From: an uncultured Flammeovirgaceae bacterium
GTDB taxonomy: Bacteria > Bacteroidota > Bacteroidia > Cytophagales > Cyclobacteriaceae
Direction: 5' to 3'
NCBI GenBank assembly: GCA_937138955.1
Contig: CAKZPJ010000655.1
Span: forward strand, 1 to 15,375
DNA: 15,375 nucleotides
Shown in pieces: positions 1,991-5,581 of this stretch; the first letter of the stretch is position 1, and the number at the start of each line of letters is the position of its first letter. The translations under genes and the position numbers were made by a program. Below the pieces are notes generated by a model that was not told the DNA's origin, did not search any database, and saw nothing but the letters and a program-made list of their open reading frames with translations.

Positions 1991-2016
1991 GATTGCTTAA
2001 TTGTTGATTGCTAATT
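1991..2016. repeat. Short direct repeat in the MIOX-padR gap
   Basis: GATTGCTTAATT (1991-2002) is followed three bases later by GATTGCTAATT (2006-2016). This is a degenerate 15-base-spaced direct repeat in the 226-base gap 1946-2171. The rest of that gap holds the hairpin at 1955, a pyrimidine-rich tract at about 2040-2095 with GTCTTCC at 2061 and 2081, and the padR promoter region. No gene is seen in the gap. Confidence 0.35.
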
Positions 2017-2110
2017 TGTCATCATATCAGTCAATTTCAGACCCCTGTTTCCTGATTTCGGTCTTCCATCTCTATTCTCTGTCTTCCGCTTCCAGTTAAA
2101 ACTATTTGTT

Positions 2111-2141
2111 ACTAAAATGTATAGCAAATAATAATTTTAGT
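2111..2141. promoter_or_regulatory. Candidate PadR operator (inverted repeat)
   Basis: ACTAAAAT (2111-2118) and ATTTTAGT (2134-2141) are perfect 8-bp inverted arms separated by 15 bases, immediately upstream of a TAnnTTTG-like promoter element and 30 bases before the padR start. PadR repressors bind dyads of this kind and usually regulate their own operon. Assignment to PadR is inference from position and symmetry. Confidence 0.4.
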
Positions 2142-2144
2142 TTC

Positions 2145-2152
2145 TATATTTG
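2145..2152 (+). promoter_or_regulatory. Putative padR promoter, -7 element
   Basis: TATATTTG fits the Bacteroidota consensus TAnnTTTG and lies 19 bases before the padR ATG. A clear -33 TTTG partner at normal spacing is not seen; the candidate operator fills that position, which fits repression by blocking the polymerase. Confidence 0.4.
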
Positions 2153-2171
2153 ATCTACAATTTAGTATCAT

Positions 2172-2501
2172 ATGAAAGAATCTCGTTTAGGCGACTTTGA
2201 AGAGACTATTTTATTACTCGTTGGCATTTTAGGAGAGAATGCTTACGCCTTTAAACTCGCGGAAGAATTTGAAGCTCAGGTTGAACGCTCAGTTTCCATT
2301 GGTGCGGTACATTCTGCGCTCAGCCGTCTGGAAGATAAAGGCTTCCTCACTTCTGAAATGGGTCAGGCTACTGCCGAACGGGGTGGGCGACGTAAACGCA
2401 TTTATACGATTACTGCTTACGGTCAACGAGCTTTGGAAATCTCTCGTGATCTGAAGGTATCGCTGTGGAGACAATTTCGACCAGAATGGGCTGGATGGTA
2501 G
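2172..2501 (+). CDS. PadR-family transcriptional regulator
   Basis: This 109-residue winged-helix repressor is the size of a minimal PadR subfamily member. The N-terminus D-F-E-E-T-I-L-L-L-V-G-I-L-G is the first helix. Residues about 42-60 (S-I-G-A-V-H-S-A-L-S-R-L-E-D-K-G-F-L) form the recognition helix and turn. The wing is G-G-R-R-K-R-I-Y-T-I-T near 71-81, followed by a C-terminal dimerisation helix. In Bacteroidota this subtype normally lies directly next to a MacB/FtsX-type permease with an N-terminal prefix domain, as here, and is expected to control it. In this window a GxxExxY gene separates the two. The last codons and the TAG stop (2499-2501) lie inside the left arm of a 14-bp inverted repeat, so the C-terminal few residues may have been altered by the insertion. 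Confidence 0.92.
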   Translation: MKESRLGDFEETILLLVGILGENAYAFKLAEEFEAQVERSVSIGAVHSALSRLEDKGFLTSEMGQATAERGGRRKRIYTITAYGQRALEISRDLKVSLWRQFRPEWAGW

Positions 2502-2506
2502 GATTA
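2493..2506 (+). repeat. Left arm of 14-bp perfect inverted repeat
   Basis: GGATGGTAGGATTA is the exact reverse complement of bases 2960-2973. It includes the last two sense codons and the TAG stop of padR. Beyond the perfect part, GATT recurs after four unmatched bases on both arms, giving a partial match over about 22 bases. Confidence 0.85.
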
Positions 2507-2543
2507 GCCTGATTATGATTTAGTGAATGAAAAGATTTAAGAG

Positions 2544-2936
2544 ATGAAAGAAGATGTTAATGATCCGTTGACCTACAAGATTATTGGTTGCGCCATGAAA
2601 GTGCATAGTACTTTAGGCAACGGCTTTCAAGAGGTTATTTATCAACGGTGTTTAGCAATTGAGATGGAAAAGCAGGGGCTAGGGTTTGCCCGTGAGTTGG
2701 AAATGCCCATCTATTACGAGAATATACAGGTGGGTACCAGAAGGGCTGATTTTGTAGTAGAAGACAAGGTGATAGTAGAATTAAAGGCAGTCATTCAGTT
2801 AGAAGATACTCATTTGGCTCAAGGTCTTAACTACCTGCAAGCGTATAAGATAGATAAAGGATTGCTCATAAATTTTGGTTCCAAGAGTTTAGACGTTAAG
2901 CGTCTATTCAGTAAAGAACACAAAGCGAAAATTTAA
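2544..2936 (+). CDS. GxxExxY protein (PD-(D/E)XK nuclease-like, function unknown)
   Basis: The 130-residue product carries the family signature G27-F-Q-E30-V-I-Y33 within the typical G-N-G-F-Q-E-V-I-Y-Q block. Further conserved blocks follow: R-A-D-F (D69), V-I-V-E-L-K-A (E79, K81), H90-L-A-Q-G-L-N-Y-L, and G-L-L-I-N-F-G near 106-112. D69, E79 and K81 have the spacing of a PD-(D/E)XK nuclease core, which is the fold usually proposed for the family; no activity is established that I can cite. ATG 2544 lies 42 bases after the padR stop. The gene is the only one inside a pair of 14-bp inverted repeats and has the same strand as padR and the permease, so it could be read from the padR promoter. 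It looks intact. Family members are often found scattered in many copies in Bacteroidota and Planctomycetota. Confidence 0.9.
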   Translation: MKEDVNDPLTYKIIGCAMKVHSTLGNGFQEVIYQRCLAIEMEKQGLGFARELEMPIYYENIQVGTRRADFVVEDKVIVELKAVIQLEDTHLAQGLNYLQAYKIDKGLLINFGSKSLDVKRLFSKEHKAKI

Positions 2937-2951
2937 CTATCCAGAAAGTGA

Positions 2952-2983
2952 AATCCTGATAATCCTACCATCCTGTGAATCCT
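2952..2983 (+). repeat. AATCCT periodic array overlapping the permease start
   Basis: AATCCT or CATCCT begins at 2952, 2961, 2969 and 2978, a step of 8-9 bases. The array covers the right arm of the inverted repeat and the GTG start codon at 2975, so the first residues of the permease (N-P-D-P) are encoded by repeat sequence. Confidence 0.7.
2960..2973 (-). repeat. Right arm of 14-bp perfect inverted repeat
   Basis: TAATCCTACCATCC is the exact reverse complement of bases 2493-2506. It ends one base before the T that precedes the permease GTG start codon. Confidence 0.85.
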
Positions 2984-5581
2984 GATCCCGACAATTTACC
3001 ACCCAAGCTTGCCCACAGATTCCTCCGCTGGTTTCTCCGTGATGACCTTGCCGAGGAAGTAGAAGGGGACTTAGAGGAGAAATTCTACCAAACAGTAGAA
3101 GAGTATTCTTTATCTCGGGCTAAACGCAATTACTGGTACCAAGTCTTTCATTACCTACGGCCTTTTGCGATCCAAAACTTAGTAACATTTCATAACCCAA
3201 CTCACTACGCTATGTATAAAAGTTATTTCAAAATTGGCTGGAGAAATATCCTAAAGTACAAAAGCTACTCGCTGATTAATATTAGTGGATTAGCGATTGG
3301 AATGGCAGTCGCGATCCTAATTGGCTTATGGGTACACGATGAATTATTATTTAATAAGTACCATGAGAACTACGACCGCATCGCTTGGGTAATGCAGAAT
3401 CAGAACTTTGAGGGAAAGATTCAGACGTGGCGGCATCAAGCTCTACAGTTGGCTCCCGAGTTACGGGATAACTATGAAGTGTACTTCGAGCATGTGATTA
3501 TGAGTAGCTTTCCGCAAAGACGAGTATTACGTCAGAATGGCAAACAAATGATTAAAAAGGGGCTTTTTATGGAATCAATCGCCCCCGAGATGCTCACACT
3601 GCGGATGCTTAATGGTACCCGGCAGGGCTTGGTCGAGCCTAATTCTGTGCTACTTCCGCTATCAACCGTTCGGGCTTTTTTTGGCGATAAAGACCCGCTA
3701 GACCAGATACTGATGCTGGGGGATCAGGAAGTCAAAGTGACCGGAGTGTACGAAAACCTACCCGATAATTCGAGCTTCGCTGAGGTGGAATTTATCGCTC
3801 CCTGGGAGCTGCATATAAAAAACTTGCCTGATGATCTTACTTGGGGGGATAGCTGGTTTCAAACGATTGTGCAAATCGCAGATCAGGCGGAGATAGCGCA
3901 AGTTTCGGAAGCTATCAAAGGTGCTAAATTGAAGCGAGCACAAGGCCGAGTGGCTGCGTTGGAGCCTGAACTATTTCTGCATCCTATGGACAAGATGCAC
4001 TTGTATTCAGAATTTGAGCAAGGTACTAACACCGGAGGGCGTATTCAGTATGTGTGGTTGTTCGGTACTATTGGGGTTTTAATATTACTGCTAGCCTGTA
4101 TTAATTTTACGAACTTAAGTACGGCTCGTTCTGAAAGACGGGCTAAGGAGATTGGGGTGCGTAAAGCAGTTGGCTCCCAGCGCAGTCAACTCGTTAGCCA
4201 ACTATTTGTTGAATCCCTGCTGATTGTGTCCTTGGCTTTTGCGGTTGCTATCTTGTTGGTGTGGTTGATTCTTCCCTTCTTCAACGAAGTGGCAGACAAA
4301 GAAATAAATGTTCCGTATTTGAATCCCCAATTTTGGCTAATCGGGCTCAGCTTTATTTTGCTAACCGGAACACTGGCAGGAAGCTATCCAGCCCTATATC
4401 TCTCTTCACTAAAAGCAGTTCGGGTACTCAAAGGTTCTTCTCGAGTGGGACGGTTAGCTGCATTACCGCGCAAAGTGCTAGTGGTAGTTCAGTTTGCCAT
4501 TTCGGTTAGTTTAGCTATTGGTACAATGGTTGTTTTTCAGCAGATTCAATTCGTAAAGAACCGCCCGATTGGTTATAATATTGATCGTCTGATCAGTGTT
4601 CCTATCCGAAGCAAGGAAGTAAATCAGCGCTTCAACGTTCTTAGAAACGATCTGCTGCAGACTGGCGCGGTAGAAGAAGTAGCCAAAAGTGGGTCACCCA
4701 TTACTGAAGTGTCCGCTATCCATAGTGGAATCGGTTGGCGAGGAAAAGGTTCTGAGATGCAAGATGAGTTCGTGGCAACCAGTGTATCCTATGAATTTGG
4801 CAAAACGATAGATTGGGAGATTGTTGAGGGAAGAGACTTTTCTCGCGCTTTTACTACCGATTCAATGGGGGTGATCATCAACGAAACCGCAGTGAAATAC
4901 ATGGGATTCAAAAATCCCATTGGGGAAGAGGTAAGAAAAGCAGGCGAAAACTACACGATCATAGGGGTAGTGAAAGATTTGATTACTCAATCGCCCTATG
5001 CCCCCACCAAGCAGACCCTCTTCTTTATAGATGAAGTAGGTACACGGGGAGTCCATATTAAACTCAATCCTCGCGTTAGTATATCAGATGCATTAGCTAG
5101 CGTAGAGGCGGTCTTCAAAAAGTATGATCCAGCTAATCCGTTTGAGTACGAATTTGCCGATGAGGGGTATGCTAAAAAGTTCGCTACCGAAGTACGGGTG
5201 GGAAAACTGGCAAGTTTCTTTGCTATACTAGCGATTTTTATAAGTTGTTTGGGGCTATTTGGACTGGTTTCCTTCGTAGCGGAGCAACGTACCAAAGAGA
5301 TTGGGATTCGTAAAGTATTAGGTGCTTCGGTAGCGAATTTGTGGCAACTACTTTCTAAAAACTTCCTAGGCTTAATTCTGATCGCCTGTCTGGTCGCTAT
5401 TCCGCTGGCGTACTACTTCGCTCGCGACTGGTTACAGGATTTTGAGTATCGTACGAACTTAAATTGGTGGATATTTGCAAGTGCTGCCTTAGGTGCTTTA
5501 GTAGTTACGTTACTAACCGTAAGTTATCAAACTATTAAAGCCGCTACGGTAAATCCAGTGAAGAGTTTGCGGAGCGAATAA
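2975..5581 (+). CDS. MacB/FtsX-type ABC transporter permease with PadR-linked prefix domain
   Basis: This 868-residue inner-membrane protein has three parts. Residues about 8-75 form the permease prefix domain found when such permeases neighbour PadR (P-P-K-L-A-H-R-F-L-R-W-F and E-V-E-G-D-L-E-E-K-F). Then come two tandem MacB_PCD-FtsX halves. Predicted membrane segments lie near 100-120, 360-380, 412-434, 452-472, 500-522, 746-767, 796-816 and 832-852. Each half has the cytoplasmic coupling motif K-E-I-G-(V/I)-R-K, at about 391-397 and 774-780. The end N-P-V-K-S-L-R-S-E is typical. Large periplasmic loops lie between helices 1-2 and 5-6. Members work with a separate ATPase, absent here, and do not move solutes in the ordinary sense; many transmit force to or extrude envelope substrates. 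GTG 2975 is the only usable start because TGA and TAA lie in frame just upstream, and it sits in repeat sequence. Confidence 0.92.
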   Translation: MNPDPDNLPPKLAHRFLRWFLRDDLAEEVEGDLEEKFYQTVEEYSLSRAKRNYWYQVFHYLRPFAIQNLVTFHNPTHYAMYKSYFKIGWRNILKYKSYSLINISGLAIGMAVAILIGLWVHDELLFNKYHENYDRIAWVMQNQNFEGKIQTWRHQALQLAPELRDNYEVYFEHVIMSSFPQRRVLRQNGKQMIKKGLFMESIAPEMLTLRMLNGTRQGLVEPNSVLLPLSTVRAFFGDKDPLDQILMLGDQEVKVTGVYENLPDNSSFAEVEFIAPWELHIKNLPDDLTWGDSWFQTIVQIADQAEIAQVSEAIKGAKLKRAQGRVAALEPELFLHPMDKMHLYSEFEQGTNTGGRIQYVWLFGTIGVLILLLACINFTNLSTARSERRAKEIGVRKAVGSQRSQLVSQLFVESLLIVSLAFAVAILLVWLILPFFNEVADKEINVPYLNPQFWLIGLSFILLTGTLAGSYPALYLSSLKAVRVLKGSSRVGRLAALPRKVLVVVQFAISVSLAIGTMVVFQQIQFVKNRPIGYNIDRLISVPIRSKEVNQRFNVLRNDLLQTGAVEEVAKSGSPITEVSAIHSGIGWRGKGSEMQDEFVATSVSYEFGKTIDWEIVEGRDFSRAFTTDSMGVIINETAVKYMGFKNPIGEEVRKAGENYTIIGVVKDLITQSPYAPTKQTLFFIDEVGTRGVHIKLNPRVSISDALASVEAVFKKYDPANPFEYEFADEGYAKKFATEVRVGKLASFFAILAIFISCLGLFGLVSFVAEQRTKEIGIRKVLGASVANLWQLLSKNFLGLILIACLVAIPLAYYFARDWLQDFEYRTNLNWWIFASAALGALVVTLLTVSYQTIKAATVNPVKSLRSE

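Follow-up and report, generated by a model that had tools for sequence, protein, structure and literature searches.

GxxExxY nuclease genes between palindromic ends, and a probable old copy of such an element at a padR-permease junction in a Flammeovirgaceae bacterium

The stretch of DNA analysed here (termed the window; 15,375 nucleotides of contig CAKZPJ010000655.1, assembly GCA_937138955.1, from an uncultured Flammeovirgaceae bacterium) contains a gene for a GxxExxY nuclease that lies between a padR regulator gene and a permease gene and is enclosed by inverted repeats. There is good support for a family of elements in which a GxxExxY gene lies between palindromic ends; somewhat more probably than not, the stretch between about 2479 and 2994 is one of these small single-gene elements, long established and passed on by vertical descent. 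Each of the two inverted ends around the GxxExxY nuclease gene would be made up of a (T)TGTCWGAA terminal word plus GATT iterons with a period of 8-9 nt, and the family would include gene-less palindromic copies of 95-234 bp. Comparison of loci and genomes brings out the shared ends, the pairing of arms, the gene-less copies and their link to the gene, inversion in place, position at gene junctions and local purifying selection. What the protein may do to the ends, and the repair steps that may follow, are argued from the association of gene and ends and from an analogy with the REPIN/RAYT system: the RecB/Cas4-like PD-(D/E)XK protein would cut or nick its own palindromic ends when these are folded into a cruciform or hairpin; as the cut palindrome is then repaired or replicated, palindromes, and occasionally the gene, would spread, or the cassette would be flipped in place; and surviving insertions would often be those at operon stop/start junctions, sometimes providing the upstream stop codon and mostly pointing in the operon direction.

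The comparison draws on 110 loci. The gene was sought in 118 genomes, including the window's own (which has a single GxxExxY gene), with a match in 70, from which 30 loci were taken; to these were added the best 80 of at least 575 confirmed loci in GTDB species genomes. Two records are duplicates, leaving 108 unique loci, of which 101 have full 200-bp flanks; counts over 103 loci (those of 7-base words and of arm scores) include the two duplicate records. Because the sampled loci are the closest relatives, statements about ends apply to the window's subfamily of GxxExxY.

Terminal words of one type (GTCWGAA..GATT on one side, AATC..TTCWGAC on the other) occur near the gene in 66 of the 101 unique loci. 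Many flanks share an architecture in which (T)TGTCTGAA or TGTCAGAA is followed by GATT words upstream of the gene, with the mirror image downstream. The words are oriented accordingly: TGTCWGAA lies within 200 bp upstream in 35/101 loci and in the downstream flank in 6/101, and TTCWGACA within 200 bp downstream in 41/101 and in the upstream flank in 18/101, with both proper 8-base ends present in 19/101. The 7-base words are found at 53/103 and 48/103 loci, as against 2.0% of 2363 control windows each, and of the intervals between successive GATT words, 101/157 upstream of the gene measure 8-9 nt, versus 34/150 in control stretches. The two arms of a locus also resemble each other more than they resemble the arms of other loci: the mean alignment score of own arms is 29.0, compared with 21.3 when partners are permuted (maximum 23.7 in 5000 permutations); the own partner is preferred over at least 95% of other partners in 31/101 loci; and the control 99th percentile is exceeded at 41/103 loci versus 93/824 mismatched pairs. 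In other words, arms vary from locus to locus yet match inside each locus, so that the matched inverted ends which a preliminary description of the window had proposed to look for at other GxxExxY genes do exist. Tandem runs of the terminal word (e.g., repeated AATTCTGACA) occur in the upstream flank of one locus (L054) and the downstream flank of another (L050), as if ends had piled up. No description of such ends at GxxExxY genes turned up in the literature searched, which excluded bioRxiv and most subscription journals, and in the full texts searched the GxxExxY name occurs in two papers, with a single mention in each.

The same end word is over-represented genome-wide (246 matches versus 44 to the reversed pattern in the 118 genomes), and it builds gene-less palindromes of 95-234 bp in several genomes (G086, G119, G112 and others), 36 complete ones being found among 46 loci examined. 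Similarity between gene-less copies ends sharply outside (T)T|GTCTGAA. Three genomes of one genus hold 37, 7 and 57 end words, respectively; one palindrome of G086 is missing at the corresponding site of G119, and another is missing at the corresponding sites of both G118 and G119. End words and the gene go together among 392 sampled genomes of the phylum: at least five ends occur in 17 of 75 genomes with a close homologue (i.e., one scoring at least 100 bits) and in 6 of 317 others, and the 17 are spread over 14 families; when two ends are subtracted for each close gene copy the contrast is 9/75 versus 6/317 (p = 4e-4). The window's own genome is different. Dispersed gene-less copies, present in other genomes, were not found there: a search for arms with up to three mismatches yielded 24 matches versus 18 for a reversed control (the window's right arm alone having fewer than two mismatches), and there are zero exact matches to the general end pattern. 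The whole-genome search that the preliminary description had suggested thus brought out no other clear ends.

In one genus the cassette occurs in both orientations at two sites whose flanks are conserved, which makes two inversion events. At the first site three genomes (G086, G118 and G119) share both flanks, and the orthologous gene (one clade, support 0.97) is reversed in G086; at the second, the gene has opposite orientations in G086 and G119 (support for the gene pair 0.999), and a complete palindrome adjoins the gene in G119.

The features of the window that bear on the element are, by position and strand, as follows.

2172-2501, forward strand: padR regulator, the upstream gene, its last codons and stop within the left arm
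2479-2514, forward strand: left arm, 36 nt, degenerate, with a perfect core at 2493-2506 and the padR stop at 2499-2501
2544-2936, forward strand: GxxExxY / PDDEXK_3 nuclease gene, 130 aa (Pfam E 1.5e-40, NCBIfam E 2.7e-43)
2748-2750, 2778-2780 and 2784-2786, forward strand: codons of the catalytic-type residues D69, E79 and K81 within the GxxExxY gene
2952-2994, forward strand: right arm with AATCC iterons, its 36-nt repeat part at 2952-2987 and its perfect core at 2960-2973
2978-2994, forward strand: near-canonical right terminus AATCCTGATCCCGACAA, matching the family end
2975-5581, forward strand: ADOP/FtsX-MacB permease, the downstream gene, its GTG start and first codons within the right arm

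Positions 2493-2506 and 2960-2973 are indeed exact reverse complements over 14 bp, each block being single-copy in the window, and the similarity that had been noticed beyond them is borne out: ungapped extension gives arms at 2479-2514 and 2952-2987, 36 nt long and 75% complementary, which form the longest inverted pair in the window. The perfect 14 bp are not kept in two congeners (G001 and G002), and the ancestral feature is the longer end rather than the perfect core. In G002 the left end is canonical, reading TGTCAGAATCAGGATT; in the window the left terminal word is worn and the right end is near-canonical. The window's gene is enclosed by matched inverted ends with GATT iterons.

Dinucleotide shuffles of the whole window contain on average 0.84 perfect 14-bp pairs (53 of 100 shuffles holding one or more), and the window itself has another, unrelated perfect inverted pair of at least 14 bp (5882-5896/8697-8711, its arms far from each other, in agreement with the chance expectation); the 14-bp repeat is therefore suggestive solely through its location, a perfect 14-bp pair arising in a fraction of 0.0006 of 20,000 shuffles of the 600-bp stretch around the gene. 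Cross-locus comparison is a stronger test than shuffling: the window's left arm pairs better with its own right arm than with the right arms of 100 out of 100 other loci.

The enclosed protein passes the curated cut-offs of TIGR04256 (147 bits versus 35) and of PF13366 (138.6 bits versus 22), the latter being the sole Pfam family matched. The nuclease-like D...E-x-K core noted earlier is intact, with D69, E79 and K81 invariant in an alignment of 47 sequences, and the predicted structure (predicted local distance difference test score, pLDDT, 91.7) is confidently modelled as a PD-(D/E)XK fold closest to Cas4/RecB-like nucleases, with a fold match exceeding background. Identity to Cas4 or RecB-family and to Hjc nucleases is 16% and 14%, respectively; only the match to SSO0001 exceeds the level at which matches may reflect a common arrangement, and a shared fold proves no function.

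How old the window's copy is can be judged from four genomes of its genus, namely the window's own (G000) and the congeners G001, G002 and G003. The order padR, GxxExxY, permease, with the gene in the same orientation, is common to the first three; in G003 padR overlaps the permease and there is no GxxExxY gene, which agrees with the earlier statement that the unit separates two normally adjacent genes. MIOX lies upstream in all four, and the permease N-terminus of G003 (MNMNPNQ) is similar to the window's (MNPDPDN). Replacement sites have changed in a proportion of 0.046-0.063 in the gene, compared with 0.013-0.053 in padR and 0.022-0.067 in MIOX, and the gene is under strong purifying selection in the window's genus. 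Synonymous divergence of the window from G001 and G002 is 0.86-0.89 (saturated) for the gene, compared with 0.47-0.54 for padR and 0.55-0.62 for MIOX, and hence the gene's history may differ from theirs. The window's cassette is apparently immobile, and its gene probably is retained for a host-level function. The notion of a mobile cassette holds in part: relatives have matched ends, but this copy is settled in three of the four genomes and under purifying selection. An arrangement fixed with divergence like that of its flanks, which had been named as an argument against mobility, is largely what is seen inside the genus, given the common place and orientation and a replacement divergence like that of padR and MIOX; it is not seen in distant relatives, where the gene mostly lies elsewhere. 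The gene-free padR-permease overlap of G003 is at most a candidate for an empty site, as its flanks have diverged as well. Searched with the permease sequence, the window's genome gives 52 matches and each congener 80-81; in G002 and G003 two or three of these are clustered behind padR.

The position of the window's copy conforms to a pattern in the family. Of 39 loci with a left word, 22 are resolvable, and in 17 of these the upstream gene's stop codon falls at the left end, eight times within the word itself; of 44 loci, 22 are resolvable on the right, and in 9 of these an ATG or GTG comes 0-1 nt after the right end. In the window the left arm contains the padR stop and the right arm the permease start. 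RhuM and Bro-N genes recur beside GxxExxY loci, and in four Mucilaginibacter loci (L045, L049, L055 and L092; Pfam assignment for L055 only) the gene lies between ruvX and O-methyltransferase genes with arms that are variously worn.

Several observations weigh against reading the segment as a copy of a mobile element. Movement of the gene is, as far as sequence comparison goes, to be read only indirectly. Neither 8-base word occurs within 200 bp on either side in 35 of 101 unique loci, the window included, and the arms of the congener copy in G001 score 20, which is the background level. The association statistics carry no correction for shared ancestry. Genomes with only distant homologues resemble those with none in their end counts, from which it follows that the link concerns a subfamily and not all GxxExxY; and of the 201 phylum genomes that lack a homologue altogether, 5 also have at least five ends. 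In one genome (G112, loci L161-L187) the GTCTGAA..GATT ends number 32 and the palindromes measure 141-152 bp, yet it matches neither TIGR04256 nor PF05635, and the idea that it is a hidden carrier was dropped. No clean empty site was found, either at the hairpin-less sites of G118 and G119, which differ in adjoining sequence too, or at the padR-permease junction of G003, where the flanking sequence likewise differs. Both flanks are shared, as judged by tblastx, in 73 locus pairs; the orientation is the same in 66 of these and opposite in 7 (the two sites above account for five, a duplicate record included; two pairs of distant loci, L012-L020 and L012-L046, were not counted), and ordinary recombination between arms could explain the inversions. 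Carriage on plasmids is rare (8 of 72,556 records), and of 7 candidate stretches in viral contigs none was confirmed. Target-site duplications were sought in relatives, around 36 palindromes without the gene and 21 elements with it (the window's ends being too worn to read); direct repeats of 2-8 nt are not generally in excess, and the sole outlier is one 5-nt match at a single offset, where 0.04 would be expected. That the gene keeps its place under strong purifying selection, finally, suggests a host-level function of this copy.

Of the other explanations, the one that fares best, though it is distinctly less probable, is that GxxExxY is an accessory or defence-linked nuclease travelling with operons, such as those of type I restriction-modification, and that the palindromes accumulate by other means, unmoved by the gene. 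HsdS, HsdM or HsdR genes are among the two nearest open reading frames (ORFs) on either side at 38 of 108 unique loci (neighbours were clustered by BLAST, with one representative per Hsd type checked by Pfam), 180 of 203 immediate neighbours lie on the gene's strand, and purifying selection on the gene and end-rich genomes without it point the same way. A PADLOC search likewise gave one weak Cas4b match among three homologues, but none to the window protein. Against this explanation, the other contexts are diverse (padR-permease, ruvX-O-methyltransferase, RhuM, Bro-N), arms pair locus by locus, and the enrichment of ends in genomes with close homologues persists after two ends per gene are subtracted.

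An effect at the level of RNA is improbable. Here the arms, once transcribed, would pair into a stem enclosing the ORF, and this stem would be processed, as in the 23S rRNA intervening sequence (IVS), or would stabilise or insulate the message. The geometry of an ORF between inverted arms is like that of the IVS, the operon position is on the same strand, and PF05635 (IVP) genes of the same genomes have matching flank arrays, inverted or direct; but gene-less palindromes exist too, and G-U pairs on the sense strand are not in excess among arm mismatches (28 versus 36 antisense, 41 loci). With this lack of a wobble excess, and with no Rfam match at E up to 1 in the window at 2000-3400, RNA-level selection on the arms was rejected; at nine loci of relatives two Rfam matches, far below gathering scores and both to microRNA models in one palindrome, were taken as chance.

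Less probable again is homing, whereby GxxExxY would cut gene-less alleles at operon junctions and be copied by gene conversion, the arms being by-products of repair. A PD-(D/E)XK nuclease inserted at stop/start junctions would suit such a role, as would phyla that are partly interleaved in a tree of 72 proteins (11 label changes, compared with a minimum possible of 8 and a shuffled mean of 13), but 44 of 69 inner branches are unresolved, and the tree therefore gives weak support for transfer between phyla; moreover, junctions differ between loci, which speaks against a single recognition site, and palindromes that have these ends but no gene occur at many scattered sites. That the 14-bp repeat encloses the gene by coincidence, as the number of pairs in shuffled windows, the second pair and the loss of the perfect core in G001 and G002 might suggest, is very improbable because the architecture recurs across the family and the window's own arms pair best, and G002 has a canonical left end.

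The reading as a single-gene element may also be set beside known systems. In REPIN/RAYT systems, according to excerpts of PMC2817692, PMC3116915 and PMC8266576, a small gene is flanked by two inverted palindromic repeats and gene-less inverted doublets are dispersed; the GxxExxY family likewise has a gene between inverted palindromic repeats (degenerate in the window) and gene-less copies. RAYTs, however, are HUH/Y1 enzymes, whereas GxxExxY is of the PD-(D/E)XK type and matches PF13366 alone, and the repeats (repetitive extragenic palindromic sequences, REPs) are GTAG-tagged, whereas GxxExxY ends consist of GTCWGAA and GATT iterons. The missing target duplications are consistent with this analogy, without proving it, and set the family apart from insertion sequences with terminal inverted repeats. 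CGTC-tagged REPs of Bacteroidetes, Spirochaetes and others, reportedly without a dedicated transposase and many with TGTC or CCTC, have, in the portions of PMC3733652 consulted, stems of 8-9 bp, loops of 4-5 nt and mostly a CCA tail; compared by this description only, they differ from GxxExxY units of 95-234 bp with 8-9 nt iterons. The TAACTGA repeats near start codons (excerpts of PMC4679880) are a different word. Rpn or YhgA-like proteins (PF04754) are PD-(D/E)XK nucleases proposed to act in gene acquisition, with a suggestion that one paralogue was inserted more than once, independently, at a single place (PMC5350276, in part), and are described in a portion of PMC10327210 as phage-defence toxin-antitoxin systems; PF04754 is unmatched in the window protein, and palindromic ends are unmentioned in the parts of the Rpn text consulted. 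The 23S rRNA IVS with an S23/IVP ORF is, in excerpts of PMC4990558, a selfish segment with one small ORF, horizontally acquired and then vertically kept; it differs in lying within rRNA, in being excised by RNase III and in the type of its ORF, the window having a PF13366 gene between padR and permease.

IVP genes in these genomes have arrays of their own. The flanks of 14 PF05635 genes (L284-L296, L299) hold arrays of short words, unlike GxxExxY ends in sequence, whose inverted score exceeds 28 (the control 99th percentile of the GxxExxY arm test, from other contigs) in 12/14, with the direct match stronger in 5/14. The window's genome has seven PF05635 matches, six of them above the cut-off; at one locus (L290, G000:C188:13101-13415) the array is inverted, scoring 40 versus 18 direct. 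These arrays could represent a second lineage of similar life style.

GxxExxY homologues occur in 191 of the 392 sampled phylum genomes. It is proposed, tentatively, that the proteins of the window's subfamily mobilise a class of bacterial mobile DNA in its own right, in which the RecB/Cas4-like PD-(D/E)XK nuclease of a one-gene element would recognise long palindromes built of iterons, spread gene-less palindromes and flip its own cassette in place, with no transposase of the DDE, HUH, serine or tyrosine type. If this is true, a common orphan nuclease family would acquire a role and the dispersed palindromes an enzyme, a nuclease type would be added to the few enzymes behind miniature bacterial repeats, and the window's genus would provide an example of an element that came to rest at an operon junction, where selection then retained it.

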